From Gorsachius magnificus (lineage: Eukaryota > Chordata > Aves > Pelecaniformes > Ardeidae): a DNA stretch of 64,000 nucleotides. This document shows, piece by piece, positions 4,298-62,470 of this stretch (position 1 is the stretch's first letter; each line of letters begins with the position of its first letter). The notes under the pieces are model-generated. The model did no database searches. It saw nothing but the letters and a program-made list of their open reading frames with translations, and was not told where the DNA came from. The position numbers and the translations under genes were made by a program. The stretch is from NCBI GenBank assembly GCA_034008185.1, contig CM067084.1, positions 60,402,599-60,466,598 on the forward strand. Reading direction: 5' to 3'.

Positions 4298-4453
4298 TGT
4301 CGTGGTTTAACCCGGCTGGCAACTAAGCACCACGCAGCCGCTCGCTCACTCCCCCCCCTCCCTCAGTGGGATGGGGGAGAGAATCGGAGAAAAGAAAAAA
4401 AAGTAAGACCCGTGGGTTGAGATAGAGACAGTTTAATAAGAGAGAAGAATAAC

Positions 4454-4487
<34 letters not shown>

Positions 4488-4915
4488 TATACAGAATATA
4501 TAAAACAAGTGATGCACAATGCAATTGCTCACCACCCGCTGACCGATGCCCAGCCCGTCCTGAGCAGCGATCACTTCCCCCGGGCCGTGATCACACAGCC
4601 CAAGCTGCGACCACTCTGCCCGCGACCGACCGACCGACTCGACCGACCCGACTGACTAACCCCCCCGAGCATGACGTTATATGGTATGGAATAGCTCTTT
4701 GGACAGTTTGGGTCCTAGCTGTGCTGTACTCCCAGCTTGTTATGCACCTGGCCGAGCAGGAGAAGCTCAAAAAGTCCTTGAGCAGTCTGAGCACTGCTTG
4801 GCAACAACTAAAAACATCAGCGTGTTATCAACATTCTTCTAGTACTAAATCCAAAGCACAGCACTATGCTAGCTTCTGTGAAGAAAATTGACTCTATCCC
4901 AGCTGAAACCAGGAC
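4298..4915 (-). repeat. Element 1 3' LTR
   Basis: 618 bp. On the minus strand it starts TGTCCTGG (4915) and ends CCACGACA (4298). It is nearly identical to the LTR at 10663-11281. It carries a (TAA)n run near 4450-4485, a TATA-like element next to a TGACGT half-CRE near 4673-4685, and ATTAAA as the likely poly(A) signal. The duplication CTTAT abuts its outer end at 4293-4297. Confidence 0.95.
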
Positions 4916-4929
4916 ATTCCACCCCTTAT
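4916..4929 (-). promoter_or_regulatory. Polypurine tract of element 1
   Basis: On the minus strand AATAAGGGGTGGAA lies flush against the TG that starts U3. This is the expected place and composition for the plus-strand primer. Because the tract directly abuts TG, the U3 end of the linear DNA would already be mature without integrase trimming. Confidence 0.75.
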
Positions 4930-5316
4930 TCTATACCATTTACGTCATGCTTAGGTCCTACCCTTACAATACATTCCAATTAATCACCACCATTTTCTCA
5001 TCTTTTTGGTACATACACAGATATCATTCCCTTAGTCTCTGGACCATCCCTCTGAAACGTCCATTGGGTTCATTTAGTCCACGGTTTTGGGCTCCATCTG
5101 TCGTAACAGTCTTTCAGGGCAGGAGAGATGGGGTCTGGTGTTGGGTTTTTGCTTGCTGAAGTCAGTTCTGGTTCCATTCGCTGCACTTCCTTAGTTTCTT
5201 CAAAATTGATTCTTCTTAATCTGGGTGATCCTTACTGCTATACCATTGATAGGATATATAGTAATAGTAAAAATGACATACTATATTATACAGCAATTAA
5301 CATTATACAATTCAGT
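4930..5316 (-). other. Element 1 non-coding tail between integrase and PPT
   Basis: About 390 bp with no long frame on the minus strand. I see no env remnant and no dUTPase motif, although a dUTPase is known downstream of integrase in some mammalian ERVL. The element therefore looks env-less. Confidence 0.7.
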
Positions 5317-7128
5317 TCATTGGCTATTTTCACCAAAAATCAAATCCCTTTGAGGTACACATCGGACTTCCCCATCCTTCCGCATCACCCACCAAGTAGA
5401 GCCAGGTCCTTGAGCAAAAGCAATCCCACGGATGGGTTTGCCTTTGCCTGAGGCAGGAGAAACCCAGACTGTCTTCCCCAGCATATTTTTTACATGCACT
5501 ACAGGGACTTTATCCCCTTCTACAGTACGTAAGAGGTTTGATTGGGCAGGGCCAGCTCGGTTGGCAGATCCTCTAGTGTTGACTAACCAGGTAGCCTTTG
5601 CTAAATGTGTATCCCAATGTTTGAATGTTCCACCACCCATTGCTTTCAGTGTAGTTTTTAACAGTCCATTGTATCGTTCAATTTTCCCAGAGGCTGGTGC
5701 ATGATAGGGGATGTGATAGACCCACTCAATGCCATGCTCTTTGGCCCATTTGTCTATGAGGCTGTTTCGGAAATGAGTTCCGTTGTCTGACTCCATTCTT
5801 TCTGGAGTGCCATGTCGCCACAGGACTTGTTTTTCAAGGCCTAGGATAGTGTTCCGGGCAGTGGCATGGGGCACGGGATATGTTTCCAGCCATCCGGTGG
5901 TCGCTTCCACCATGGTGAGCACATAGCGCTTGCCATGGCGGGTTTGTGTGAGTGTGATATAATCGATCTGCCAAGCCTCTCCATATTTGTATTTCAGCCA
6001 CCATCCTCCATACCAGAGAGGCTTTAACCGCTTGGCTTGTTTGATCGCAGCACACGTTTCACATTCATGGATAATCTGTGCGATAGCGTCCATAGTTAAG
6101 TCCACCCCTCGATCACGAGCCCATCTATATGTTGCATCTCTTCCTTGATGGCCTGAGGTGTCATGGGCCCACCGAGCTAGAAACAATTCACCCTTATGTT
6201 GCCAGTCCAGATCCACCTGAGCCACTTCAATCTTAGCAGCCTGATCTGCCTGCTGGTTGTTTTGATGTTCTTCAGAGGCCCGACTCTTGGGTACATGAGC
6301 ATCTACATGACGTACCTTTACAACCAGGTTCTCCACCCGGCAAGCAATATCTTGCCACAGTGTGGCTGCCCAGATGGGTTTGCCTCTGCACTGCCAGTTG
6401 CTCTGCTTCCATTGCTGCAACCACCCCCACAGGGCATTTGCCACCATCCATGAGTCAGTATAGAGATAGAGCATTGGCCATTTTTCTCTTTCAGCAATAT
6501 CTAAAGCCAGCTGGATGGCTTTCACCTCTGCAAATTGACTTGATTCACCTTCTCCTTCAGCAGTCTCTGCAACTTGTCTTGTAGGACTCCATACAGCAGC
6601 CTTCCACCTTCGATGCTTTCCCACAAGACGACAGGATCCATCAGTGAACAGAGCATATTGCTTCTCGTTTTCTGGCAATTTATTGTACAGCGGGGCCTCT
6701 TCAGCACGCATCACCTCCTCCTCTGATGATACTCCAAAATCTTTGCCTTCTGGCCAGTCCATGATCACTTCCAAGATTCCTGGGCGACTGAGGTTTCCTA
6801 TTCGAGCCCGTTGTGTAATCAGTGCGACCCACTTACTCCACGTAGCATCAGTTGCATGATGTGTAGAGGGGACCTTCCCTTTGAACATCCAGCCCAGCAC
6901 CGGCAGTCGGGGTGCCAGGAGGAGCTGTGCTTCAGTACCAATCACTTCTGAAGCAGCTCGAACCCCTTCATATGCTGCTAATATCTCTTTTTCAGTTGGA
7001 GTATAGTTGGCTTCAGATCCTCTGTATCCCCGACTCCAAAAGCCTAGGGGTCGGCCTCGAGTCTCCCCTGGTGCTTTCTGCCAAAGGCTCCAGGTAGGGC
7101 CGGTCTCTCCGGCTGCGGTGTAGAGCAC
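5317..7128 (-). CDS. pol: Element 1 Pol, RNase H and integrase part
   Basis: A 603-codon frame, in viral order RNase H then integrase. RNase H acidic residues are visible in FTDGS (D163), the EVKAIQ segment (E201) and YTDS (D225), with a further Asp in VDAHV. The integrase zinc domain has H322, H327, C356 and C359. The catalytic core has D389 (QIDY), D448 (SDNG) and E484 (GKIERYN), giving the D,D(35)E spacing. The C-terminus runs to a normal stop and looks complete. The first codons overlap the end of the protease-RT frame, because a one-base insertion in an A7 run at 7130-7136 separates the frames; one A fewer would join them. The start given is only where this frame opens, not a real initiation site. 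The protein would act in the reverse transcription and integration complex. Confidence 0.92.
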   Translation of the reverse strand: MLYTAAGETGPTWSLWQKAPGETRGRPLGFWSRGYRGSEANYTPTEKEILAAYEGVRAASEVIGTEAQLLLAPRLPVLGWMFKGKVPSTHHATDATWSKWVALITQRARIGNLSRPGILEVIMDWPEGKDFGVSSEEEVMRAEEAPLYNKLPENEKQYALFTDGSCRLVGKHRRWKAAVWSPTRQVAETAEGEGESSQFAEVKAIQLALDIAEREKWPMLYLYTDSWMVANALWGWLQQWKQSNWQCRGKPIWAATLWQDIACRVENLVVKVRHVDAHVPKSRASEEHQNNQQADQAAKIEVAQVDLDWQHKGELFLARWAHDTSGHQGRDATYRWARDRGVDLTMDAIAQIIHECETCAAIKQAKRLKPLWYGGWWLKYKYGEAWQIDYITLTQTRHGKRYVLTMVEATTGWLETYPVPHATARNTILGLEKQVLWRHGTPERMESDNGTHFRNSLIDKWAKEHGIEWVYHIPYHAPASGKIERYNGLLKTTLKAMGGGTFKHWDTHLAKATWLVNTRGSANRAGPAQSNLLRTVEGDKVPVVHVKNMLGKTVWVSPASGKGKPIRGIAFAQGPGSTWWVMRKDGEVRCVPQRDLIFGENSQ

Positions 7129-8503
7129 ATTTTTTTACATCTTGCCCTGCCCGGACCGGCCCAAGGGCTACTGCATGCACTATCTCCCGTTTAATTTGTT
7201 CAAAGGCTTGTCGTTGTTCAGGGCCCCATTTGAAATCATGCTTCTTCCGGGTCACTTGGTAGAGAGGGCTTACAATCTGGCTATAATTTGGAATATGCAT
7301 TCTCCAAAAACCCACAACGCCCAAGAAAGCTTGTGTTTCCTTTTTGCTAGTTGGTGGAGACATGGCTGTTATTTTATTGATCACATCCATTGGAATCTGA
7401 CGACGTCCATCTTGCCATTTGATTCCTAAAAGCTGGATCTCCTGTGCAGGTCCTTTGACCTTGCTTTGTTTTATGGCAAAACCGGCCTTCAGAAGGATTT
7501 GGACTATTTTCTTCCCTTTCTCAAAAACTTCTTCTGCTGTATTGCCCCACACAATGATGTCATCAATGTATTGCAGATGTTCTGGAGCATTACCCTGTTC
7601 CAGTGCTGTCTGGATCAATCCATGGCAAATGGTAGGGCTGTGTTTCCACCCCTGGGGCAGTCGATTCCAGGTGTACTGGATGCCCCTCCAAGTGAAAGCA
7701 AACTGTGGCCGGCACTCTGCTGCCAAAGGGATTGAAAAGAAAGCATTTGCAATATCAATTGTGGCATACCACTTGGCTGCCTTTGACTCCAGTTCGTATT
7801 GAAGTTCTAACATGTCCGGCACGGCAGCACTCAGTGGTGGCGTAACTTCATTCAGGCCACGATAGTCTACTGTCAGTCTCCACTCTCCATCAGACTTTCT
7901 CACTGGCCATATGGGACTGTTAAAGGGTGAGCGAGTCTTGCTGATCACTCCTTGGCTCTCCAGTCGACGAATCAGCTTATGGATGGGAATCAGAGAGTGT
8001 CGGTTGGTGCGATATTGCCGCCTGTGCACTGTTGTGGTGGCAATCGGCACTTGTTGTTCTTCAACACTCAGCAACCCCACAACCGAAGGGTCCTTTGAGA
8101 GACCAGGCAAGGTAGACAGCTGCTTAATTTCTTCTGCCTCCAAGGCAGCTATACCAAAAGCCCACCGGTACCCTTTTGGGTCCTTGAAATACCCTCTCCT
8201 GAGGTAGTCTATGCCAAGGATGCACGGAGCATCTGGCCCAGTCACAATGCGGTGCTTTTGCCACTCGTTCCCGGTTAGGCTCACTTCGGCCTCCAATACA
8301 GTCAGCTCTTGAGATCCCCCTGTCACTCCAGAAATACAAATGGATTCTGCCCCTATATGGCTTGATGGCATTAGAGTACACTGTGCACCGGTGTCTACCA
8401 GAGCTCTATACTTCTGTGGGTCTGATGTGCCAGGCCATCGAATCCACACAGTCCAGTAAACCCGGTTGTCCCTTTCCTCCACCTGGCTGGAGGCAGGGCC
8501 CCT
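7013..8503 (-). CDS. pol: Element 1 Pol, protease and reverse transcriptase part
   Basis: This frame is open from the codon after the Gag UAG (AGG at 8503) and has no ATG near its start, so it should be made by readthrough of Gag. Counting from the GTG at 8482, the protease active site is LVDTGA (D30, T31, G32), with a CILGID flap/core segment at about 87-92. RT follows, with the first catalytic Asp in YATID (D243), LPQG at 275-278 and YIDD at 305-308, then thumb and connection segments. The last roughly 40 codons are out of frame after the A7 insertion near 7130. The size and domain order fit a class III pol with protease in the same frame. No stop falls inside PR-RT. Confidence 0.92.
   Translation of the reverse strand, partial: RGPASSQVEERDNRVYWTVWIRWPGTSDPQKYRALVDTGAQCTLMPSSHIGAESICISGVTGGSQELTVLEAEVSLTGNEWQKHRIVTGPDAPCILGIDYLRRGYFKDPKGYRWAFGIAALEAEEIKQLSTLPGLSKDPSVVGLLSVEEQQVPIATTTVHRRQYRTNRHSLIPIHKLIRRLESQGVISKTRSPFNSPIWPVRKSDGEWRLTVDYRGLNEVTPPLSAAVPDMLELQYELESKAAKWYATIDIANAFFSIPLAAECRPQFAFTWRGIQYTWNRLPQGWKHSPTICHGLIQTALEQGNAPEHLQYIDDIIVWGNTAEEVFEKGKKIVQILLKAGFAIKQSKVKGPAQEIQLLGIKWQDGRRQIPMDVINKITAMSPPTSKKETQAFLGVVGFWRMHIPNYSQIVSPLYQVTRKKHDFKWGPEQRQAFEQIKREIVHAVALGPVRAGQDVKKCALHRSRRDRPYLEPLAESTRGDSRPTPRLLESGIQRI
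7130..7136 (-). other. Homopolymer frameshift in element 1 pol
   Basis: A run of seven A on the coding strand. The upstream frame (protease-RT) and downstream frame (RNase H-integrase) are offset by +1 here, consistent with one inserted A. It could be a real mutation or a homopolymer error in the assembly. Confidence 0.75.
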
Positions 8504-8506
8504 CTA
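8476..8506 (-). promoter_or_regulatory. Gag UAG stop followed in frame by Pol, with hairpin: probable readthrough signal
   Basis: TAG at 8506-8504 ends Gag; the next codon (AGG) continues in the same frame into protease. Ten bases downstream, CCTCCA (8493-8488) can pair with TGGAGG (8481-8476) around a six-base loop. Elements 2 and 3 keep both the UAG and the same-frame join, with one mismatch in the stem. MLV-type gammaretroviruses are known to use UAG readthrough with a structure at similar distance. Function here is inferred. Confidence 0.65.
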
Positions 8507-9856
8507 ATTCTGGTCACTGTTGCTCATGGTTTGTGTATACGAGTCAAAAGTTCCTTCATCGCAACCAGAATTAAGATCAGCTCTTCTATTCTGTCTGAAA
8601 AAATGACGTTCTACCCCGTCTTTGGAAATTGGAGCAACAAGTTTCTTGGAAGAGCCCCCTTTTGTGCTTGTTTTTCTTTGCAACTCGCGTACTCGTGCCT
8701 CTAGGGTTGAGGTAGGTTTTCCGTCCCATTTCCTCATGTCCTCTCCATGGTCACGCAGGTAAAACCATAGAGTGCCCCGTGGTGTGTACCCTCGATATTC
8801 TTTTCCTTGAGCAGAAGGGCGCTTACTTCTAATGGCTGAGATACTGGTCTGTACAGGAGAGGTGTAGGGTATACGTTTTTCGAGTCGTTCAACCTTTTGG
8901 GACAGTTTATCCACAGCAGAGACGAGGGAAGAAGAGATACTTTCTTCGTATTCCCGGAGCTGGCTAGCCATTTCATCCACTGTTGGTCCCCGTCCAGCTT
9001 CCCAGTTCATTATTGCCCATGTGTTGGCATATGATGTTGGTGCGCTCCGTAACAACTTCCGCCACATGGGTCGTGTGCACTGGACACTATCTGGATCTTT
9101 AGGCAACTGGTCATTGTCCAGGTCACTATAAATCACTTCCAGGACAGCCAATTCCCTCAGGTACTGAATGCCTTTCTCCATGGTAGTCCATTTGCCTGGG
9201 CGATGTATGACATCTTCCTTGAAGGGATATCTTTCCTTCATGGCTGACAGTAGTCGCCTCCAGAGGCTGAGGACTTGTGTCCCTTTTCCAATCGCTTTGT
9301 CAATGCCCCCTTCCCTAGAAAGGGATCCCAGCTGTTTGGCTTCTTTACCCTCCAGTTCCAGGCTACTGGCCCCATTATCCCAGCATCGGAGCAACCAGGT
9401 GACAAGATGCTCTCCTGCACGACGGCTGAAATCTTTTCTCATATCTCGCAGCTCACCCAAGGATAGAGACCGTGTAGTTTCTGTCTCATTTATGAGCTCT
9501 TCCTCTTCCTCCTCCTTTTGTGATGGCCCTGATTCATCCTCCCTTTCTAAACGAGTTGACTTTCGCTTCCAAGATTTCTTCTTGTGTATAGGGGCAACTG
9601 ATACCGGCACAGGTTCGCTCCCTGCTTCAGCTGCAATGCCTGTTGCTGGGGTTTGAGTAGCTGCAGTGCAGGTTGCAGGGGTTGGAGTAGCAGCAGTGCC
9701 TGTGGCTACGGCTGGAGGAGCTACAGTGGGTGTCACTGGGGTTGGAGTAGCTGCAGTGCCTACGTCCACAGCTGGAGTAGTTACAGCGGGTGTTGCAGGG
9801 GCTGGAGTACCAGCAGTGCCTGTGCCCACAGCTGGAGTAGCTACAGTGGGTGTCAC
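8504..9856 (-). CDS. gag: Element 1 Gag, C-terminal part
   Basis: A 450-codon frame. In order it has the end of the Ala/Thr/Pro repeat (about 1-70), a basic patch KKKSWKRK, an acidic stretch (EEEEEE), a capsid-like helical region (about 130-300) rich in Trp and Leu, a short coiled coil (VDKLSQKVERLEK), and a C-terminal segment with LWFYLRDHGEDMRKWDG. No CCHC zinc knuckle is visible, so RNA binding may rely on the basic patches. The ATG at the frame's start lies inside the repeat and is not a likely initiation codon. The true start is the ATG at 10544, from which it is separated by a frameshift in the minisatellite near 9870. The frame ends at the UAG that precedes in-frame Pol. Confidence 0.85.
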   Translation of the reverse strand: MTPTVATPAVGTGTAGTPAPATPAVTTPAVDVGTAATPTPVTPTVAPPAVATGTAATPTPATCTAATQTPATGIAAEAGSEPVPVSVAPIHKKKSWKRKSTRLEREDESGPSQKEEEEEELINETETTRSLSLGELRDMRKDFSRRAGEHLVTWLLRCWDNGASSLELEGKEAKQLGSLSREGGIDKAIGKGTQVLSLWRRLLSAMKERYPFKEDVIHRPGKWTTMEKGIQYLRELAVLEVIYSDLDNDQLPKDPDSVQCTRPMWRKLLRSAPTSYANTWAIMNWEAGRGPTVDEMASQLREYEESISSSLVSAVDKLSQKVERLEKRIPYTSPVQTSISAIRSKRPSAQGKEYRGYTPRGTLWFYLRDHGEDMRKWDGKPTSTLEARVRELQRKTSTKGGSSKKLVAPISKDGVERHFFRQNRRADLNSGCDEGTFDSYTQTMSNSDQN

Positions 9857-10544
9857 AGGGGTTGAAGTACAGTGCCTGTGTCTGCATTGGAGGAGTTACA
9901 GTGGGTGTTACTGAGGCTGGAGTAGCAGCAGTGCCTATGCCCACAGCTGGAGTAGCTACAGTGGGTGTCGCAGGGGTTGGAGTAGCTGCAGTGCCTGTGT
10001 CTGCAGTTGGAGTAGCTACAGTGGGTGTCACTGAGGTTGGAGTAGCTGCAGGGCCTGCTGCAGGAATCAATCTTTGGATGGTATATAATTTACGTAGGAG
10101 TCTAACCCTGAGTAAAAGCTGAACTATATTCAGGAGACCTAGCAATAGGGCCATGCTAGTTGGAACATCCCAAGGATATTCAACATTCTCAAGAACTGTT
10201 GTAATTAGCTCAGAGAAGAAGGGGAAGATGGAGTAAGGTGACTCCCCCACAGGCTGGCTCTCCGAGGATAAAAAGTAAAATGTATAATTATTCATAATTC
10301 CCAATAGATGGTTCCCAAAATACAGAGGTGACAGCAATACTGAGTAAAAATATGAGCTTAATCTGATGACCAATAATTTTATCATAGCATAAGCCAGTAT
10401 TATACAGTACAGCAGAACAGTAGCTTTAATCCACTTGCGAAAAGTGACAACCAGCAGCACAGGGAGTGCATACAGCAGGTAAGGTGATATATAAAAGAAC
10501 TCCATGAACAAGGACAGCAACTCTGAGAGCAAATAAAACAACAT
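9627..10544 (-). CDS. gag: Element 1 Gag N-terminus: hydrophobic multi-segment region plus Ala/Thr/Pro repeat
   Basis: It starts at the ATG about 90 bases after the PBS. Residues 1-80 are strongly hydrophobic with few charges and could form three or four membrane segments; an NYT sequon follows at 86-88, and another hydrophobic stretch lies at about 131-150. From about 161 the protein becomes an Ala/Thr/Pro repeat. After about residue 215 the frame slips inside the minisatellite and the last 80 or so codons (Cys/Ser/His-rich) are out of frame. Element 2 encodes a diverged homologue in one frame with the Gag basic patch, so this is the N-terminus of Gag and not a separate gene. Membrane targeting is inferred from composition. 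The 85-residue module present in element 2 is missing here. Confidence 0.8.
   Translation of the reverse strand: MLFYLLSELLSLFMEFFYISPYLLYALPVLLVVTFRKWIKATVLLYCIILAYAMIKLLVIRLSSYFYSVLLSPLYFGNHLLGIMNNYTFYFLSSESQPVGESPYSIFPFFSELITTVLENVEYPWDVPTSMALLLGLLNIVQLLLRVRLLRKLYTIQRLIPAAGPAATPTSVTPTVATPTADTGTAATPTPATPTVATPAVGIGTAATPASVTPTVTPPMQTQALYFNPCDTHCSYSSCGHRHCWYSSPCNTRCNYSSCGRRHCSYSNPSDTHCSSSSRSHRHCCYSNPCNLHCSYSNPSNRHCS
9640..10070 (-). repeat. Coding minisatellite in element 1 gag, 60-bp unit (two 30-bp halves)
   Basis: About six to seven units translate on the minus strand to a roughly 20-residue Ala/Thr/Pro/Val repeat. The halves alternate between forms with GTTGGAGTAGC and forms with ACAGTGGGTGTC on the plus strand. 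One irregular unit near 9866-9890 breaks the reading frame. Copy number differs between elements: about four in element 3 and fewer than two in element 2. Confidence 0.85.
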
Positions 10545-10635
10545 TGCGATCAGCGACTATTAGACTAATATAACGAATGCTTATCACAAATGCGTTTTAG
10601 AAATGTTCAGATCTGTCGTTATCTCAACCCTTCGG

Positions 10636-10653
10636 GCCCCACGTTGGGCGCCA
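10636..10653 (-). promoter_or_regulatory. Primer-binding site, tRNA-Lys(CTT)
   Basis: The minus-strand 18-mer TGGCGCCCAACGTGGGGC is complementary to the 3' end, including CCA, of tRNA-Lys with anticodon CTT (the Lys1,2 type). Nine bases (10654-10662) separate it from the LTR end, longer than the usual 0-3. Confidence 0.93.
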
Positions 10654-10662
10654 AAATAGGAC

Positions 10663-10818
10663 TGACGTGGTTTAACCCGGCTGGCAACTAAGCACCACGC
10701 AGCCGCTCGCTCACTCCCCCCCCTCCCTCAGTGGGATGGGGGAGAGAATCGGAGAAAAGAAAAAAAAGTAAGACCCGTGGGTTGAGATAGAGACAGTTTA
10801 ATAAGAGAGAAGAATAAC

Positions 10819-10852
<34 letters not shown>

Positions 10853-11281
10853 TATACAGAATATATAAAACAAGTGATGCACAATGCAATTGCTCACCAC
10901 CCGCTGACTGATACCCAGCCCGTCCCGAGCAGCGATCACTTCCCCCAAGCCGCGATCACACAGCCCAAGCTGCGACCACTCTGCCCGCGACCGACCGACC
11001 GACTCGACCGACCCGACTGACTAACCCCCCCGAGCATGACGTTATATGGTATGGAATAGCTCTTTGGACAGTTTGGGTCCTAGCTGTGCTGTACTCCCAG
11101 CTTGTTATGCACCTGGCCGAGCAGGAGAAGCTCAAAAAGTCCTTGAGCAGTCTGAGCACTGCTTGGCAACAACTAAAAACATCAGCGTGTTATCAACATT
11201 CTTCTGGTACTAAATCCAAAACACAGCACTATGCTAGCTTCTGTGAAGAAAATTGACTCTATCCCAGCTGAAACCAGGACA
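10663..11281 (-). repeat. Element 1 5' LTR
   Basis: 619 bp. The U3 end is at 11281 (TGTCCTGG on the minus strand) and the U5 end at 10663 (CCACGTCA). It is nearly identical to 4298-4915. Duplication CTTAT follows at 11282-11286. The U5/R part carries a (TAA)n run around 10815-10853 and ATTAAA at 10797-10802. Confidence 0.95.
11037..11049 (-). promoter_or_regulatory. LTR core promoter: half-CRE plus TATA-like element
   Basis: On the plus strand TGACGTTATATGG; on the transcribed (minus) strand this is a CATATAA TATA-like box followed by a CGTCA half-CRE. The same arrangement recurs in the other LTRs of the window, including diverged families. Confidence 0.5.
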
Positions 11282-13854: not shown

Positions 13855-13939
13855 TGTTATGGCTTAACCCGGCTAGAAACTAAGCACCACGCAGCCACTT
13901 GCTCACTCCTCCCTCCCTCAGTGGGATGGGGGAGAGAAT
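13855..13939 (-). repeat. Element 2 3' LTR remnant (U5 end only)
   Basis: It starts TGTTATGGCTTAACCC on the plus strand, the decayed equivalent of TGTCGTGGTTTAACCC in element 1, and stops at about 13939 where pol sequence begins. Only about 85 bp of the LTR remain. Confidence 0.85.
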
Positions 13940-14767
13940 CAGGATGCCCCTACAAGTAAAAGCAAACTGTGGCCGGCACTCTGCTGCCAAAGGGATTGAA
14001 AAGAAAGCATTTGCAATATCAATTGTGGCATAACACTTGGCTGCCTTTGACTCCAGTTCATATTGAAGTTCTAACATGTCCGGCACGGCAGCACTCAGTG
14101 GTGGCGTAACTTCATTCAGGCCACGATAGTCTACTGTCAGTCTCCACTCTCCATCAGACTTTCTCACTGGCCATATGGGACTGTTAAAGGGTGAGCGAGT
14201 CTTGCTGATCACTCCTTGGCTCTCCAGTCGACGAATCAGCTTATGGATGGGAATCAGAGAGTGTCGGTTGGTGCGATATTGCTGCCTGTGCACTGTTGTG
14301 GTGACAATCGGCACTTGTTGTTCTTCAACCCTCAGCAACCCCACAACCAAAGGGTCCTTTGAGAGACCAGGCAAGGTAGACAGCTGCTTAATTTCTTCTG
14401 CCTCCAAGGCAGCTATACCAAAAGCCCACCGGTACCCTTTTGGGTCCTTGAAATACCCTCTCCTGAGGTAGTCTATGCCCAGGATGCACGGAGCATCTGG
14501 GCCAGTCACAATGCAGTGCTTTTGCCACTCGTTCCCGGTTCGGCTCACTTCGGCCTCCAATACAGTCAGCTCTTGAGATCCCCCTGTCGCTCCAGAAATA
14601 CACATGGATTCTTCCCCTTTATAGCTTGATGGCATTAGAGTACACGCTGCACTGGTGTCTACTAGAGCTCTATACTTCTGTGGGTCTGACGTGCCAGGCC
14701 ATCGAATCCACACAGTCCAGTAGACTCGGTTGTCCCTTTCCTCCACCTGGCTGCAGGCAGGGCCCCT
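13940..14767 (-). pseudogene. pol: Element 2 Pol fragment: protease and N-terminal RT
   Basis: The frame continues from the Gag UAG at 14770-14768. The protease segment is very similar to that of element 1, but the active-site DTG motif reads DTS (LVDTSA), so the catalytic loop is altered. RT is kept through the first catalytic Asp (YATID) and then stops at the deletion junction, well before YIDD. The last codons of the frame are read from LTR U5 sequence. It cannot make active RT. Confidence 0.9.
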
Positions 14768-15716
14768 CTAATCCTGGTCACTGTTGCTCATGGTTTGTGT
14801 GTATGAGTCAGAAGTTCCTTCATCGCAACCAGAATTAAGATCAGCTCTTCTATTCTGTCTGAAAAAATGATGATCTACCCCATCTCTGGAAACTGGAGCA
14901 ACAAGTTTCTTGGAAGAGCCCCCTTTTCTGTTTGTTTTTCTTTGCAACTCACGTACTCGTGCCTCTAGGGCCGAGGTAGGTTTTCCGTCCCATTTCCTCA
15001 TGTCCTCTCCATGGTCACGCAGGTAAAACCATAGAGTGCACCGTGGTGTGTACCCTTGATATCCTCTCTCTTGAGCAGAGGGTCGCTTACTCCTAGTGGC
15101 TAAGATGCTTGTTAGTACAGATGGGGAGTGAGATATATCCTCATGGAATTGTTCAAACTTCCGAGACAGTTTCTCCACAGCCGAAACAAAGGAGGAAGAG
15201 ATACTTTCTTCATATTCCCAGAGCTGGCTAGCCACTTCATCCACTGTTGGTCCCTCTCCATCTTTCCAGTTCAGCATTGCCCATGTGTTGGCATATGATG
15301 TTGGTGCACTCCGTAACAACTTCTGCCACATGGGTCGTGTGCACCAGACATTATCTGAAACTTTGGGCAACTGGTCATTGTCCAGGTCACTATAAAGCAG
15401 CTCCAGGATAGCTAATTCCCTGAGGTACTGGATGCCTTTCTCCACAGTGGTCCATTTACCTGGGCGATATATGACATCTTCCTTGAAGGGATATCTTTCC
15501 TTCATGGCTGACAGTAGTCGTCTCCAGAGGCTGAGTGCTTGTGCCCCTTTTCCAATTGTTTTGCCAATGCCCCCTTCCCTAGAAAGGGATCCTAGTTGCT
15601 TGGCTTACTTACCCTCGAGTTCCAGGCTGTTGGCCCCCTTATCCCAGCATCAGAGTAGCCAGGTGACAATGAGCTCACCTGGACGACGGCTGAAATATTT
15701 TTGCATATCCCGCAGC
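14768..15716 (-). pseudogene. gag: Element 2 Gag, C-terminal part, broken
   Basis: Homologous to the capsid-like and C-terminal parts of element 1 Gag, with the same LWFYLRDHGEDMRKWDG segment and the same terminal UAG. A GAA to TAA stop lies in the EGKEAKQLGS region (near 15606), and the upstream part is in another frame because of an indel near 15785. The longest open piece starts at an internal ATG at 15505. Confidence 0.85.
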
Positions 15717-16742
15717 TCACTCAAGGATAGGGATCAGGTGGTTTCTGTCTCGTTTATGAGCTCTTCCTCCTCCTCTTGTGACAGCCCCCGCTTTTTCATC
15801 CTCCCTTTCTAAACGAGTTGACTTCCGCTTCCAAGATTTCTTCTTTTGTATAGGGGCAACTGATACTGGCATGGGTTGGTTCCCTGGTTCAGCCGCAGTG
15901 CCTGTGGCCTGGGTTGGAGTAGCTACAGTGTGTATCACCGGGGTTGGAGTAGCTGCAGTGGCTGTGGCCGGGGTTGGAGTAGCTGCAGTGGCTGTGGCCT
16001 TGTCATCAGATCCAGAGACTTTCTCTTCCCTTTGGATGTATTGTATAGTGTTGAACAGGGCTCGGTAAGCATGGGCCAGGCCCCAGCACATTGCAGTGAT
16101 TTGTGTTTGCCTAGAATTGCCAGGGTGCCAGCATACCTTTTCCAAATATTCTACCAGTTTTTCAGGATTCTGCACTTGTTCAGGAGTGAATTTCCAAAAC
16201 ACTGGAGGTGCCCATCGTTCTAGGCATTTACCCATACTACCCCAAATACCCTGCCACTCATAACTATCCAGCCCTGGGGCAGACATCTGGATGGTATTAT
16301 TAAGTTGCTTACAAACTTTGGAAAAAACTGAAACAATATTCCAAATAGATATCAATAGATATACCTTAACTATCCAAGGATGTTCAAGATACTGAAAAGT
16401 TATTGTAAAGAAGGAGGAAACATCATCAAAGGCGGCAGAAAAAGTGCCATTCTGTATTTCCTCCACAACAAACTTCTGAGAATCCGATGTATAATTGCTA
16501 ATTTTCTCAGCGAGGTGGTAGCCAAAGTGCAGTACAGACTTCGACATGAAACCCAAATACCAGATAAAGCTCAAGGTCATTGTTTTAATAACAAGTTTCC
16601 CAAGCAAAACATGTCTGGTCACCGCAGAACATAACAAACTGCAAAAACCAACACCAACTTTTAACAAGTACAGCAAAGGAGGGAGCATGGTGCAGATCGG
16701 ATAAACTAAGATTGAGAACAAATGAATCAAATTGCGACCCAC
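15717..16742 (-). CDS. gag: Element 2 Gag N-terminus, long form with extra 85-residue module
   Basis: A 341-codon frame starting about 70 bases after the PBS. Residues 1-75 are hydrophobic, followed by FGYHL, an NYT sequon (83-85), an NGT sequon (98-100), and an LEHPW...NIV segment (119-137). These positions line up with FGNHL, NYT, VEYPW and NIV in element 1, so the two leaders are diverged homologues. Residues about 152-236 form a Trp-rich, mostly soluble module that elements 1 and 3 lack. A short Ala/Thr/Pro repeat (about 250-280) and the basic KKKSWKRK patch follow in the same frame. This shows that the hydrophobic leader is fused to Gag. The final roughly 20 codons are out of frame after an indel near 15785. 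Confidence 0.8.
   Translation of the reverse strand: MGRNLIHLFSILVYPICTMLPPLLYLLKVGVGFCSLLCSAVTRHVLLGKLVIKTMTLSFIWYLGFMSKSVLHFGYHLAEKISNYTSDSQKFVVEEIQNGTFSAAFDDVSSFFTITFQYLEHPWIVKVYLLISIWNIVSVFSKVCKQLNNTIQMSAPGLDSYEWQGIWGSMGKCLERWAPPVFWKFTPEQVQNPEKLVEYLEKVCWHPGNSRQTQITAMCWGLAHAYRALFNTIQYIQREEKVSGSDDKATATAATPTPATATAATPTPVIHTVATPTQATGTAAEPGNQPMPVSVAPIQKKKSWKRKSTRLEREDEKAGAVTRGGGRAHKRDRNHLIPILE
16033..16293 (-). other. 255-bp gag segment flanked by a 6-bp direct repeat; absent from elements 1 and 3
   Basis: TGGATG (plus strand) occurs at 16288-16293 and 16033-16038, 255 bp apart. In element 1 a single TGGATG (10075-10080) joins the flank of the first copy to the flank of the second. This fits an in-frame loss of 85 codons between short direct repeats. 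Confidence 0.7.
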
Positions 16743-16809
16743 AACTGTTTAACAGATATAAATTCCTTAATATTCTCTGGTTACTCTGTCGTTATCTCAA
16801 GCCCTTCAG

Positions 16810-16827
16810 GCCCCATGTTGGGCGCCA
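16810..16827 (-). promoter_or_regulatory. Element 2 primer-binding site, tRNA-Lys(CTT)
   Basis: TGGCGCCCAACATGGGGC on the minus strand has one mismatch to the Lys(CTT) PBS of element 1, at a CpG. Eight bases separate it from the LTR. Confidence 0.9.
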
Positions 16828-16835
16828 AAAAGGAC

Positions 16836-17412
16836 TGTCGTGGTTTAACCCAGCTGGCAACTAAGCACTCCCCCCCCTCCCTCAGTGGGATGGGGGAGAG
16901 AATGGGGAAGGAAAAAAAAAGTTAGAGCCGTGGGCTGAGATAAAGACAGTTTAATAAGAGAAAATAATAGTAATAGTAATAATGAGAATGGTAACAGAAT
17001 ATACAGAATATACAAAACGAATGATGCACCATGCAATTGCTCACCACCCGCTGACCGATGCCCAGCCCGTCCTGAGCAGCGATCACTCCCTGAGCCGCGA
17101 TCAGTCCCCGAGCAACAATCACTCTCCCTGCAACCGACCGACCGACTAACCCCCCCGAGCATGACGTTATATGGTATGGAATAGCTCTTTGGACAGTTTG
17201 GGTTAGCTCTCCTAGCTGTGTTCCCTCCCAGCTTGTTATGCACCTGGCCGAGAAGGAGAAGCTCAAAAAGTCCTTGAGTAGCCTAAGTACTACTTAGCAA
17301 CAACTAAAAACATCAGTGTGTTATCAACATTCTTCTAGTACTAAATCCAAAACACAGCATTATGTTAACTACTATGAAGAAAATTAACTCTATCCCAGCC
17401 GAAACCAGGACA
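16836..17412 (-). repeat. Element 2 5' LTR
   Basis: 577 bp, TG...CA on the minus strand (17412 to 16836). It is clearly the same LTR family as element 1 but shorter in U5, lacking the CACGCAGCCGCTCGC block and the long (TAA)n run. Confidence 0.92.
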
Positions 17413-23778: not shown

Positions 23779-23936
23779 TGTCGTGGTTTAACCCAGCTGG
23801 CAACTAAGCACCACGCAGCCGCTCGCTCACTCCCCCCCCTCCCTCAGTGGGATGGGGGAGAGAATCAGAGAAAAGAAAAAAAAAAGTAAGACCCGTGGGT
23901 TGAGATAGAGACAGTTTAATAAGAGAGAAGAATAAC

Positions 23937-23976
<40 letters not shown>

Positions 23977-24414
23977 GTAAGAAAATATACAGAATATATA
24001 AAACAAGTGATGCACAATGCAATTGCTCATCACCTGCTGACCGATGCCCAGCCCGTCCCGAGCAGTGATCACTCCCCCCGAGCTGTGATCACACAGCCCG
24101 AGCTGCGACCACTCTGCCCGCGAACGACCGATCGACCCGACCGACCCGACCGACTAACCCCCCCGAGCATGACGTTATATGGTATGGAATAGCTCTTTGG
24201 ACAGTTTGGGTCCTAGCTGTGCTGTACTCCCAGCTTGTTATGCACCTGGCCGAGCAGGAGAAGCTCAAAAAGTCCTTGAGCAGTCTGAGCACTACTTGGC
24301 AACAACTAAAACCATCAGCGTGTTATCAACGTTCTTCTAGCACTGAATCCAAAGCACAGCACTATGCTAGCTTCTGTGAAGAAAATTAACTCTATCCCAG
24401 CCAAAACCAGGACA
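23779..24414 (-). repeat. Solo LTR of the element 1 family
   Basis: 636 bp, TG...CA on the minus strand (24414 to 23779), with a long (TAA)n run around 23936-23983. It is flanked by the duplication AATTC (23774-23778 and 24415-24419). No internal sequence remains, the usual result of LTR-LTR recombination. Confidence 0.95.
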
Positions 24415-57108: not shown

Positions 57109-57331
57109 TTATGATATTTTTGTTTGTCTCATCTATTTGGTTTACTTGAAGCAGAGTTTAGTTTAAGTGAAGGTGGTGTTAGCTAAATAATGTTTGATTC
57201 TGAGAACAGCATAACCTTATGTGATGAGGAATGCATAATATGCTTTAGAACCTCCCTGTAAACACAAAACAATGTTAGAGGCCTTTTAGAAACACTACTG
57301 TATTAAGTCAAGCCACACCCATGTAATTACT

Positions 57332-57944
57332 TGTCCTGGTTTCAGATGGGATAGAGTTAATTTTCTTCCTAGTAGCTAGCATAGTGCTGTTCTTTGGATT
57401 TAGTACTAGAAGAATGTTGATAACACGCTGATGTTTTTAGTTGTTGCCAAGTAGTGCTCAGACTGCTCAAGGACTTTTTGAGCTTCTGCTTGGCCAGGTG
57501 CATAACAAGCTGGGAGTACAGCACAGCTAGGACAGCTGACCCAAACTGTCCAAAGAGCTATTCCATACCATATAATGTCATGCTCAGGGCGGGGGATGGG
57601 TTAGTCGGTCGGTCGCAGGCAGAGTGGTCGCAGTTTGGGCTGTGTGATCGCGGCTCGAGGGGAGTGATCGCTGCTCGGGACGGGCTGGGCATCAGTCAGC
57701 GGGTGGTGAGCAATTGCACTGTGCATCGCTTGTTTTATATATTCTGTACATTCTCTTACCACTATTATTACTATTATTATTATTGTTATTATTCTCTCTT
57801 ATTAAACTGTCTCTATCTCAACCCATGGGTCTTACTTTTTTTTTTTTTTCCTCCGATTCTCTCCCTCATCCCACTGAGGGAGGGGGGGGGGAATGCGCGA
57901 GCGGCTGCGTGGTGCTTAGTTGCCAGCCAGGTTAAACCACGTCA
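57332..57944 (+). repeat. Element 3 left LTR, plus orientation
   Basis: 613 bp from TGTCCTGG to CCACGTCA. It is inverted relative to the right LTR at 61852-62465 and is its closest relative in the window. Confidence 0.95.
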
Positions 57945-57954
57945 GTCCTTATTT

Positions 57955-57972
57955 TGGCGCCCAACGTGAGGC
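57955..57972 (+). promoter_or_regulatory. Element 3 left primer-binding site
   Basis: TGGCGCCCAACGTGAGGC, ten bases after the LTR end. It differs at one base from the right PBS of the same element (61824-61841). That is what one expects if this copy was made from the tRNA and the other from viral RNA. Confidence 0.92.
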
Positions 57973-58021
57973 TCGAACCCACGACCCTGAGATTAAGAGT
58001 CTCATGCTCTACCCACTGAGC
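57973..58021 (-). other. tRNA-Lys(CTT) body sequence copied beyond the PBS
   Basis: Continuing without a gap from the PBS, this stretch is the reverse complement of tRNA-Lys. On the minus strand one reads D-arm GTGGGTAGAGC, anticodon arm with loop CTCTTAA (anticodon CTT), and TΨC arm GGTTCGAG. Together with the PBS, 67 bases are represented, about tRNA positions 76 to 10. The base after the PBS (T at 57973) lies opposite A58, the m1A that normally stops plus-strand synthesis. The acceptor 5' strand is missing, so this is not a functional tRNA gene. Sequence then switches to integrase at 58021/58022. Confidence 0.93.
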
Positions 58022-59449
58022 GTTCAATTTTCCCAGAGGCTGGTGCATGATAGGGGATGTGATAGACCCACTCAATGCCATGCTCTTTGGCTCATTTGTC
58101 TATGAGGCTGTTTCGGAAGTGAGTTCCGTTGTCTGACTCCATTCTTTCTGGGGTGCCATGTCGCCACAGGACTTGTTTTTCAAGGCCTAGGCTAGTGTTC
58201 CGGGCAGTGGCATGGTGCACAGGGTATGTTTCCAGCCATCCTGTGTTCACTTCCACCATGGTGAGCACATAGCGCTTGCCATGGCGGGTTTGTGGGAGTG
58301 TGATATAATCAATCTGCCAAGCCTCTCCATATTTGTATTTCAGCCACCGTCCTCCATACCAGAGAGGCTTTAACCGCTTGGCTTGTTTGATCGCAGCACA
58401 TGTTTCACATTCATGGATAACCTGTGTGATAGCGTCCATAGTTAAGTCCACCCCTCGATTACGAGCCCATCTATATGTTGCAACTCTTCCTTGATGGCCT
58501 GAGGTGTCATGGGCCCACCGAGCTAGAAACAATTCACCCTTATGTTGCCAGTCCAGATCCACCTGAGCCACTTCAATCTTAGCAGCCTGATCTGCCTGCT
58601 GGTTGTTTTGATGTTCTTCAGTGACCCGACCTCTTCATGGGTACATGAGCATCTACATGACGTACCTTTACAACCAAGTTCTCCACCCGGGCAAGCAATA
58701 TCTTGCCACAGTGAGGCAGCCCAGATGGGTTTGCCTCTGTGCTGCCAGTTGCTCTGTTTCCATTGCTGCAACCACCCCCACAGGGCATTTGCCACCATCC
58801 ATGAGTCAGTATAGAGAGAGAGCATTGGCCATTTTTCTCTTTCAGCAATATCTAAAGCCAGCTGGATGGCTTTCACCTCTGCAAACTGACTTGATTCACC
58901 TTCTCCTTCAGCAGTCTCTGCAACTTGTCTTGTAGGACTCCATACAGCAGCCTTCTACCTTCGATGCTTTCCCACAAGACGGCAAGACCCATCAGTGAAC
59001 AGGGCATATTGCTTCTCATTTTCTGGCAGTTTATTGTACAATGGGGCTTCTTCAGCACGCACCACCTCTTCCTCTGGCGATATTCCAAAATCTTTGCCTT
59101 CTGGCCAGTCCATGATCACTTCCAAGATTCCTGGGCGACTGAGGTCTCCTATTCGAGCCCGTTGTGTAATCAGTGCGACCCACTTACTCCACACAGCATC
59201 ATGATGTGTAGAGGGGACCTTCCCTTTGAACATCCAGCCCAGCACCAGCATTCGGGGTGCCAGGAGGAGCTGTGCTTCAGTACCAATCACTTCTGAAGCA
59301 GCTCGAACCCCTTCATATGCTGCCAATATCTCTTTTTCAGTTGGAGTATAGTTGGCTTCAGATCCTCTGTATCCCCGACTCCAAAACCCTAGGGGCCGGC
59401 CTCGAGTCTCCCCTGGTGCTTTCTGCCAGAGGCTCCAGGTAGGGCCGTT
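58022..59449 (-). pseudogene. pol: Element 3 Pol fragment: RNase H and integrase
   Basis: Closely similar to element 1 pol. It begins at the inverted junction just after the integrase catalytic Glu-Arg codons, so the integrase C-terminal domain is absent. The HHCC zinc domain and D,D,E residues can be recognised, but the Trp codon in the IDKWA segment is TGA (near 58091). Two or more frameshifts break RNase H (frames ending at 58092, 58523 and 58955). The protein would be non-functional. Confidence 0.9.
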
Positions 59450-59453
59450 CTCG
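59448..59453 (-). other. Deletion junction removing RT
   Basis: Sequence matching element 1 near 7110 is joined to sequence matching 8107, about a 1.0-kb loss that removes all of RT and the end of protease. Only a few bases of ambiguity at the joint. Confidence 0.85.
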
Positions 59454-59849
59454 CAAGGTAGACAGCTGCTTAATTTCTTCTGCCTCCAAGGCAGCTATAC
59501 CAAAAGCCCACCGGTACCCTTTTGGGTCCTTGAAATACCCTCTCCTGAGGTAGTCTATGCCCAGGATGCACGGAGCATCTGGGCCAGTCACAATGCAGTG
59601 CTTTTGCCACTCATTCCCGGTTAGGCTCACTTCGGCCTCCAATACAGTCAGCTCTTGAGATCCCCCTGTCGCTCCAGAAATACACATGGATTCTTCCCCT
59701 TTATAGCTTGATGGCATTAGAGTACACGCTGCACTGGTGTCTACTAGAGCTCTATACTTCTGTGGGTCTGACGTGCCAGGCCATCGAATCCACACAGTCC
59801 AGTAGACTCGGTTGTCCCTTTCCTCCACCTGGCTGCAGGCAGGGCCCCT
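59454..59849 (-). pseudogene. pol: Element 3 protease fragment
   Basis: In frame after the Gag UAG (59852-59850). It carries LVDTSA at the active site, the same DTG to DTS change as element 2, and CILGID; truncated by the RT deletion. The shared DTS form groups elements 2 and 3 against element 1 here. Confidence 0.88.
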
Positions 59850-60817
59850 CTAATCCTGGTCACTGTTGCTCATGGTTTGTGTATACGAGTCAAAAGTTCC
59901 TTCATCGCAATCAGAATTAAGATCAGCCCTTCTATTCTGTCTGAAAAAATGATGATCTACCCCATCTCTGGAAACTGGAGCAACGAGTTTCTTGGAAGAG
60001 CCCCCTTTTGTGCTTGTTTTTCTTTGCAACTCGCGTACTCGTGCCTCTAGGGCCGAGGTAGGTTTTCCGTCCCATTTCCTCATGTCCTCTCCATGGTCAT
60101 GCAGGTAAAACCATAGAGTGCACCGTGGTGTGTACCCTCGATATTCCTTTTCTTGAGCAGAAGGGCGCTTACTTCTGATGGCTGAGATACTGGTCTGTAC
60201 AGGAGGGGAGTAGGACATATGCTTTTCGAGTCGTTCAACCTTTTGGGACAGTTTATCCACAGCAGAGATGAGGGAAGAAGAGATACTTTCTTCATATTCG
60301 CGGAGCTGGCCAGCCACTTCATCCACTGTCGGTCCCCGTCCAGCTTCCCAGCTCAGCATTGCCCATGTGTTGGCGTATGATGTTGGTGCGCTCCGTAACA
60401 ACATCCACCACATGGGTCGTGTGCACCGGACACTATCTGGATCTTTGGGCAACTGGTCATTGTCCAGGTCACTATAAATCACCTCCAGGACAGCCTATTC
60501 CCTCAGGTACTGGATGCCTTTCTCCACGGTGGTCCATTTGCCTGGGCGACATATGACATCTTCCTTGAAGGGATATCTTTCCTTCATGGCTGACAGTAGT
60601 CACCTCCAGATGCTGAGGACTTATGTCCCTTTTCCAATCTCTTTGTCCCTTTTCCAATCTCTTTGTCCATGCCCCCTTCCCTAGAAAGGGATCCCAGCTG
60701 TTTGGCTTCCTTACCCTCCAGTTCCAGGCTACTGGCCCCATTATCCCAGCATCGGAGCAACCAGGTGACAAGGTGCTCTCCTGCACGACGGCTGAAATCT
60801 TTTTGCTTGTCTCGCAG
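59850..60817 (-). pseudogene. gag: Element 3 Gag, C-terminal part, broken
   Basis: Capsid-like, coiled-coil and LWFYLHDHGEDMRKWDG regions homologous to element 1, ending in UAG with Pol in frame. Breaks are a TTG to TAG stop near 60494, and a 20-bp tandem duplication at about 60624-60663 that shifts the frame. Confidence 0.87.
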
Positions 60818-61732
60818 CTAACCCAAGGATAGAGACCATGTAGTTTCTGTCTCATTTATGAGCTCTTCCTCCTCCTCTTGTGGTGGCCCCACCTTTTCAT
60901 CCTCCCTTTCTAAATGAGTTGACTTTCGCTTCCAAGATTTCTTCTTGTGTATAGGGACAACTGATACTGGCACAGGTTCGCTCCCTGTTTCAGCTGCAAT
61001 GCCTGTTGCTGGGGCTTGAGTAGCTACAGTGCAGGTTGCAGGGGTTGGAGTAGCAGCAGTGCCTGTGTCCACAGTGCGGGTAGCTACAGTGGGTGTCGCA
61101 GGGGCTGGAGTACCAGCAGTGCCTGTGTCCACAGCTCGAGTAGCTACAGCGGGTGTCACTGAAGTTGGAGTAGCCGCGGTGCCTGTGTCTGCAGTTGGAG
61201 GAGATACAGTGGGTATCACTGAGGCTGGAGTAGCCGCAGGGCCTGTTGCAGGAGTCGATCTTTGGATGGTATATAATTTACGTAGGAGTCTAACCCTGAG
61301 TAAAAGCTGAACTATATTCAGGAGACCTAGCAATAGGGCCATGCTGGTTGGAACATCTCAAGGATATTCAACATTCTCAAGAACTGTTGTAATTAGCTCA
61401 GAGAAGAAGGAGAAGATGGAGTAAGGTGACTCCCCCACAGGCTGGCTCTCTGAGGATAAAAAGTAAAATGTGTAATTATTCATAATTCCCAATAGATGGT
61501 TCCCAAAATACAGAGGTGACAGCAATACTGAGTAAAAATATGAGCTTAATCTGATGACCAATAATTTTATCATAGCATAAGCCAGTATTACACAGTACAG
61601 CAGAACAGTAGCTTTAATCCACTTGCGAAAAGTGACAACCAGCAGCACAGGGAGTGCATACAGCAGGTAAGGTGATATATAAAAGAACTCCATGAACAAG
61701 GACAACAACTCTGAGAGCAAATAAAACAACAT
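60818..61732 (-). pseudogene. gag: Element 3 Gag N-terminus: hydrophobic leader and repeat
   Basis: Almost identical to the element 1 leader. One TGG to TGA change in the VEYPWD segment (near 61355) splits it. After that stop the same frame continues through the Ala/Thr/Pro repeat into KKKSWKRKSTHLE and the acidic stretch. The leader, repeat and Gag are therefore one reading frame. The 85-residue module of element 2 is missing, as in element 1. Confidence 0.88.
61010..61255 (-). repeat. Coding minisatellite in element 3 gag
   Basis: About four 60-bp units of the same type as 9640-10070, in an intact frame here. Confidence 0.85.
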
Positions 61733-61823
61733 TGCGACCAGTGACTATTAGACTAATATAATGAATGCTTGTCACAAATTCGTTTTAAAAATGTTCAGAT
61801 CTGTTGTTATCTCAACCCTTCGG

Positions 61824-61841
61824 GCCCCACGTTGGGCGCCA
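61824..61841 (-). promoter_or_regulatory. Element 3 right primer-binding site, tRNA-Lys(CTT)
   Basis: TGGCGCCCAACGTGGGGC on the minus strand, exact; ten bases from the LTR end. It is followed by normal viral leader sequence (CCGAAGGG), unlike the left PBS. Confidence 0.93.
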
Positions 61842-61851
61842 AAATAAGGAC

Positions 61852-62465
61852 TGACGTGGTTTAACCTGGCTGGCAACTAAGCACCATGCAGCCGCTCGCG
61901 CACTCCCCTCCCCCCCGCCCTCAGTGGGATGAGGGAGAGAATCGGAGAAAAGAAAAAAAAAAGTAAGACCCGTGGGTTGAGATAGAGACAGTTTAATAAG
62001 AGAGAATAATAATAATAATAATAATAGTAATAATAGTGGTAAGAGAATGTACAGAATATATAAAACAAGCGATGCACAATGCAATTGCTCACCACCCACT
62101 GACCGATGCCCAGCCCGTCCCGAGCCGCGATCACTTCCCCCAAGCCGCGATCACACAGCCCGAGCTGCGACCACTCTGCCCGCGAACGACCGACCGACTA
62201 AGCCCCCCGAGCATGACGCTATATGGTGTGGAATAGCTCTTTGGACAGTTTGGGTCAGCTGTCCTAGCTGTGCTGTACTCCCAGCTTGTTATGCACCTGG
62301 CCGAGCAGGAGAAGCTCAAAAAGTCCTTGAGCAGTCTGAGCACTACTTGGCAACAACTAAAAACATCAGCGTATTATCAACATTCTTCTAGTACTAAATC
62401 CAAAGAACAACACTATGCTAGCTACTAGGAAGAAAATTAACTCTATCCCAGCCGAAACCGGGACA
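61852..62465 (-). repeat. Element 3 right LTR, minus orientation
   Basis: 614 bp, TGTCCCGG at 62465 to CCACGTCA at 61852, followed by the duplication TTACT at 62466-62470. Confidence 0.95.
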
Positions 62466-62470
62466 TTACT

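Follow-up and report, generated by a model that had tools for sequence, protein, structure and literature searches.

In a 64,000-nucleotide stretch of the genome of Gorsachius magnificus (Ardeidae; GCA_034008185.1, contig CM067084.1, positions 60,402,599 to 60,466,598; hereafter the window, to which all coordinates refer), we describe an old ERV that very probably arose by read-through of the primer tRNA during reverse transcription, followed by insertion of a molecule with U3 at both ends. CR1-type repeats in the window have the appearance expected in a bird genome. As read from the nucleotide sequence, the element carries inverted LTRs with outer U3 ends, a 5-bp target-site duplication, an in-register copy of tRNA-Lys(CTT), and a single join at tRNA position 10 where this copy meets the integrase region. 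At this one locus, we consider it likely, although with less assurance than the core claim, that aberrant reverse transcription of a tRNA-Lys(CTT)-primed, spumavirus-like (class III) ERV, completed by a template-switch join, gave rise to the whole element as a single integrated product; that the join was made by end joining instead appears rather unlikely.

The whole element spans 57332-62465, and each of its LTRs starts with TG at the outer U3 end (Table 1). Read from the right on the minus strand, it has the LTR-PBS-gag-pro-pol order of a normal 5' half, but where the 3' part should follow there are tRNA positions 10-76 and then an inverted LTR. The arrangement of an ordinary provirus, with direct LTRs and one U3 and one U5 outer end, is thus not found. 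Both U3 ends sit at the exact TG terminus of the family, and the alignment of the two LTR arms stops at the LTR ends. The inversion of one LTR relative to the other was not clearly stated in the original prediction, which described only part of the element.

Table 1. Features of the element and its flanks, in window coordinates.
Feature	Position	Strand	Basis
Target-site duplication, left copy TTACT	57327..57331	+	
Left LTR, U3 end TGTCC... outward, U5 end CACGTCA inward	57332..57944	+	
10-nt LTR-PBS spacer GTCCTTATTT, identical on right side	57945..57954	+	
Left PBS, complement of tRNA-Lys(CTT) 76-59, one base off (position 62)	57955..57972	+	
Complement of tRNA-Lys(CTT) 58 to 10; sense tRNA on minus strand	57973..58021	+	
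tRNA copy/integrase junction; a single base (G, gag sense) is compatible with either side	58021..58021	.	
Integrase region, cut off at junction	58021..58634	-	Pfam PF00665, PF17921; sibling comparison
RNase H region	58523..58954	-	Pfam PF00075
RT connection/RNase H-like remnant, scoring at or slightly below Pfam cut-offs	58955..59452	-	PF17919, PF17917
Deletion site; sibling 7108-8106, about 1 kb with the catalytic part of RT, is absent	59452..59453	.	sibling RVT_1
Gag and protease-like region, largely colinear with sibling	59453..61744	-	named by order and by eye
Right ordinary PBS, exact complement of tRNA-Lys(CTT) 76-59	61824..61841	-	
Right 10-nt spacer	61842..61851	-	
Right LTR, outer end is U3 end	61852..62465	-	
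Target-site duplication, right copy TTACT	62466..62470	+	

Among the coding remnants, the core domain was found in the integrase region and its zinc-binding domain scored just below the Pfam cut-off; this region also carries a TGA at about 58092 where a sibling provirus in the window has TGG. The gag and protease-like region gave no Pfam match in the four frames searched. The gag-like regions contain 60-bp tandem repeats, at about 60990-61259 in this element and at the matching 9655-10063 in the sibling, and the copies differ here. Little or no microhomology is visible by eye at the RT deletion, and a third family copy also continues there.

The plus strand of 57955-58021 is, without gaps, the complement of tRNA-Lys(CTT) positions 76 to 10, being identical at 65 of 67 bases to a reference tRNA sequence. 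The two differences lie at tRNA position 62 (57969), within the PBS, and at position 17 (58014), in the D loop; the latter is the single D-loop difference that had been noted before. The original prediction that the 49 bases following the PBS continue as tRNA complement and end near position 10 is borne out at 57973-58021, where 48/49 bases agree, and its statement that T stands opposite A58 is correct for the T at 57973. The best other ungapped match of this 49-nt tRNA body in the window reaches 26/49, which excludes a chance match. Independently of this reference, the Rfam tRNA model matches the minus strand of 57962-58024 with 41.7 bits (gathering score 29; E=1.9e-05 for the whole window). 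ARAGORN called no tRNA gene at the copy, as is to be expected of a tRNA piece that has no 5' acceptor strand. When the 67-nt minus strand was folded as RNA, the minimum-energy structure was not a cloverleaf (z -1.64; 12 of 200 shuffled versions were equally or more stable), and the tRNA identity of this segment therefore rests on the alignment and the Rfam model rather than on folding. The attributes of a genomic tRNA gene (complete fold, gene flank, no CCA) were not found at 57955-58021, the 5' acceptor strand being absent, while an LTR-PBS followed by in-register tRNA complement beyond position 58 is present at the left end of the element.

Comparison with the ordinary PBS copies of the family clarifies what this segment replaced. 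Three such copies lie in the window on the minus strand (61819-61841, which is the one at the right end of the element, 10631-10653 and 16805-16827), and all carry TGG. For this reason the TGG in the left PBS, which had been read as proof of a mature tRNA template, does not prove it alone; stronger arguments are that the register is unbroken from PBS to tRNA, that the bases normally following the PBS in this family are gone, and that the tRNA breaks off abruptly at the integrase join. As had been claimed, the left and right PBS differ by one base, the left being off at tRNA position 62 and the right exact. The right PBS (61824-61841) continues as CCGAAGGG and not as tRNA body. All three ordinary copies continue with C, then CGAA (TGAA in one) and then GGG, of which the C mismatches A58, the CGAA or TGAA pairs fully or nearly so with tRNA positions 57-54, and the GGG mismatches. 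This pattern is similar to what the available parts of PMC13191261 describe as the primer over-extension sequence of lentiviruses and spumaviruses. Four bases in related copies are weak evidence, but would be in keeping with frequent plus-strand extension slightly beyond A58 in this lineage.

The sibling provirus, at 4298-11281 on the minus strand, has direct LTRs, a CTTAT duplication, RT, RNase H and integrase domains, and no tRNA body. Over the 976 bases adjoining the join, it is 96.1% identical to the present element, the final 40 bases being identical; at the join, the sibling continues in integrase whereas the present element switches to tRNA, with one G compatible with both. A further 758 bases separate this point in the sibling from its 3' LTR and are absent from the present element. 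The sibling U3 is preceded by GGGGTGGAA, plausibly the polypurine tract. Its LTRs differ at 9/619 columns and it holds open frames of up to 605 aa, so that it is probably a fairly young insertion. The family is further represented in the window by a solo LTR at 23779-24414, with AATTC on both sides, and by a third, more diverged copy at 13855-17412 on the minus strand, which comprises a 5' LTR, a gag-like region and part of RT. At about 13941 this third copy passes directly into LTR sequence of the U5 part, so that it lacks everything between its partial RT and that point, including most of the 3' LTR.

Despite its palindromic architecture, which looks like an accident of reverse transcription, the element appears to have been inserted normally. 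A perfect TTACT repeat lies on both sides of 57332-62465, and identical 5-mers at the same spacing occur at only 71 of 56,995 window positions (0.12%). At four family insertions whose flanks were compared, a 5-bp repeat was found in three (TTACT, CTTAT, AATTC); the flanks of the third copy, 13855-17412, have no common 5-mer (CTAAG and AGGTT). Since that truncated copy lacks a duplication, it is the sibling and the solo LTR that support a 5-bp rule for the family. Both hallmarks of insertion by integrase, i.e., TG...CA termini and a duplication of the length typical of the family, are thus present. Regarding the other LTR terminus, the U5 end beside the PBS reads GTCA in the left LTR (57938-57954), in the right LTR (61842-61858) and in the sibling 5' LTR (10654-10670), and GACA at the outer ends of the sibling 3' LTR (4298-4305) and the solo LTR (23779-23786), as well as at the inner end of the third copy. 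The CA of U5 sits 9-10 nt from the PBS in this family, the usual spacing being about 2 nt. Should GTCA make for a weaker U5 attachment site, a molecule with two U3 ends would avoid it.

The two LTRs of the element differ at 34 of 619 columns (5.5%), plus indels, or at 21 of 493 (4.3%) once low-complexity columns of our own choosing are masked. They are nearest to each other among the six LTRs compared, their distances to the other four being 6.8-12.4%. Of the 34 differences, 12 are private to the left LTR, 9 are private to the right, 11 occur in both states in the other four LTRs and 2 have no match there. In the gag-pro segment, for which three copies were aligned over 1041 columns, private changes number 17 in this element, 38 in the sibling and 55 in the third copy, and the difference between the LTRs is more than double the segment's private rate of 1.6%. 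Sorting of the left/right differences into variants present among the siblings would suggest two co-packaged genomes; 11/34 sort in this way, but so do 6/9 in the ordinary control pair sib5/sib3, and the sorting is therefore no sign of two parents. The tRNA copy has 2 changes in 67 bases, against 1.5-2.8% elsewhere in the element. The chance of at least two changes in 67 bases is 0.37, 0.55 or 0.70 at rates of 1.9, 2.75 or 3.6%, respectively, and because two changes are unremarkable at all three rates, the copy was probably exact at insertion and is probably as old as the rest of the element.

Placement of the family was based on the sibling. Among solved structures only, the sibling RT frame best matches 7o0h Pr125Pol (E=4.2e-45), which we take to be a foamy virus protein, with the gammaretroviral-type p80 RT of 4hkq close behind (1.5e-43), and the sibling integrase best matches the PFV integrase (E=1.8e-14). 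On these sequence matches, in which the RT margin is narrow and the comparison is to solved structures, RT and integrase are closest to spumaviruses, as expected of class III. A 5-bp duplication, as in spuma-like and ERVL-like elements of this class, is found at three of the four insertions compared. ERVL elements have a 5-bp target-site duplication and are primed by tRNA-Leu. The latter does not apply here, the PBS of the family fitting tRNA-Lys(CTT), and the family is therefore spuma-like rather than classical ERV-L.

The plus strand of 57332-58021 reads exactly as expected of plus-strand strong-stop DNA running beyond A58, and past the join this strand is colinear with a copy of the plus-sense RNA up to the 5' LTR, except for the RT deletion and the repeat differences. 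In the proposed pathway, plus-strand strong-stop DNA, starting from the polypurine tract, would copy U3-R-U5 and 18 PBS bases, pass A58 and proceed to about tRNA position 10. The resulting over-long 3' end would fail to prime at the PBS, as second strand transfer normally requires, and would instead, with 1 nt paired, be extended on plus-sense viral RNA within integrase, perhaps on a second genome. This extension would yield antisense sequence from integrase to gag, then PBS, U5 and R, whereupon an ordinary jump at R, like that of the first transfer, would add U3. A second polypurine-primed strand would give a double-stranded product with a U3 terminus at each end, and integrase would join both U3 ends to the target.

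Several steps of this pathway can be set against what is described for other retroviruses. The halt of copying at m1A58, as the original prediction assumed it, is not absolute: according to the sections available of a review (PMC13191261), minor plus-strand stops occur at tRNA positions 55, 54 and 37 besides m1A58, over-extension beyond A58 takes place in TRMT6-mutant cells, and in-vitro-transcribed tRNA is copied fully. The same source, as far as available, states that only products ending at 58, 55 or 54 serve as templates for the next step and that longer over-extended ones are not used in strand transfer (PMC13191261). Priming at the PBS is not expected of a longer 3' end. Copying across m1A often leaves misincorporations, which contribute significantly to its signature (PMC4787781, available in part); the T opposite A58 suggests that the template was unmethylated here or was bypassed correctly. 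The original proposal that plus-strand strong-stop synthesis ran on into the primer tRNA is supported as the best explanation of the join.

How the join itself was made is a narrower question. Under an alternative that retains the same read-through, host repair would have attached a double-stranded LTR-PBS-tRNA strong-stop fragment, by end joining, to a cDNA with a break in integrase, after which integrase used the two U3 ends. Overlaps of 1 nt, such as that at the join, are typical of end joining as well, and this overlap does not separate it from template switching. The RT deletion of about 1 kb would also suit this alternative, as another break or jump in the molecule, its parent or the inserted copy. 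End joining would, however, need two damaged molecules and second-strand synthesis across the tRNA, whereas switching would need one enzyme and one growing strand; template switching is thus the most likely mechanism, and end joining has a modest share of our expectation.

Explanations that dispense with read-through or with a single insertion fare far worse. Derivation from a genomic tRNA-Lys gene, either by PBS/T-arm recombination or by insertion into an already formed ordinary provirus, is conceivable in that the PBS and a tRNA gene have about 15 bp in common, and TGG would be present in the PBS in any case. It leaves unexplained, however, the inverted LTR, the common TTACT, the stop within the tRNA without gene flank and the fact that the 758 bp between integrase join and 3' LTR in the sibling are not present here, and we regard it as highly improbable. 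Inverted structures are common long-read chimeras, which speaks for an assembly or sequencing artefact in the form of a fold-back chimera; yet the arms differ by 34/619 substitutions plus indels and align no further than the LTR ends, the element as a whole lies within a 5-bp duplication and the tRNA copy at the join occurs nowhere else in the window, so that we give this explanation very little credence. Scarcely more attractive is a later chromosomal rearrangement that removed the 3' part of an ordinary provirus and supplied it with an inverted LTR from a second insertion. The presence of several family copies in the window, including 13855-17412, which is truncated and without matching flanks, speaks for such events, but a second insertion would carry its own duplication rather than the common TTACT, the left and right LTRs are mutually nearest among the six, and the tRNA copy would still need an explanation.

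Both tRNA copies in retroviral DNA and over-extension beyond A58 are already known from cell culture, to judge from the available parts of PMC12220202 and PMC13191261. In the first of these, a Moloney MLV circular DNA with tRNA-Gly between its LTRs is credited to Colicelli and Goff. Like the present element, this circle has a nearly complete tRNA copied into DNA beside an LTR, the MLV copy being without four 5' bases; in contrast, its tRNA is non-cognate, the molecule is circular and unintegrated, and its LTRs are not described as inverted in the parts available (PMC12220202), whereas here the tRNA is cognate and the molecule is integrated with two U3 ends. The same source describes an HIV provirus from cell culture with reverse-transcribed tRNA-Gly beside the 3' LTR (67 of 72 nt), which resembles our case in that an integrated tRNA copy with missing 5' bases adjoins an LTR. 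There, the tRNA lies outside the provirus and its separate entry is thought likely by the authors (PMC12220202, available in part), whereas in the present element it lies inside the duplication-bounded element and is joined to pol. The over-extended strong-stop DNA of TRMT6-mutant cells or of unmodified tRNA-Lys3 is similar in that the plus strand enters the tRNA body; those products were obtained in cells or in vitro, whereas here the product is inherited and its follow-up join preserved (PMC13191261, available in part). The closest ordinary relative is the sibling, which has the same family, PBS, leader, gag-pol order and 5-bp duplication but differs in its direct LTRs, its RT, its continuing integrase and its lack of a tRNA body. 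Ohshima and Okada reportedly proposed a strong-stop-plus-tRNA model for the origin of tRNA-Lys SINEs, which likewise involves tRNA-Lys fused to LTR-end DNA in a genome; that model is said to be a hypothesis on the birth of SINEs, whereas the present case is a provirus. Among the literature matches listed, which included few subscription papers, none reported a germline provirus that ends in U3 on either side and encloses the body of its cognate tRNA. In a viral contig collection, a poor place to find bird proviruses, exact PBS-tRNA fusion patterns for tRNA-Lys(CTT), Lys3 and Pro were found zero times, and a search for relatives of the integrase gave three pattern stretches, none of which was confirmed.

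The m1A58 stop is thought to secure the second strand transfer, and this locus shows a possible outcome of its failure in a germ cell. A broader proposal, on which we are evenly divided, is that integrase can insert palindromic U3/U3 cDNA into the germline and that failure of the m1A58 stop feeds this route, over-extended strong-stop DNA that is blocked in the second transfer priming on plus-sense RNA instead. If this is true, other genomes should hold more LTR-PBS-tRNA-pol joins, and such joins would record the primer tRNA used, its A58 methylation state and the end point of copying. The locus also bears on old ideas of tRNA-fused strong-stop DNA entering genomes. An LTR-PBS-tRNA body joined to antisense pol within one target-site duplication is a signature that can be searched for in any genome, and it allows one to measure in nature, beyond cell culture, how often primers are over-extended and U3/U3 molecules integrate.
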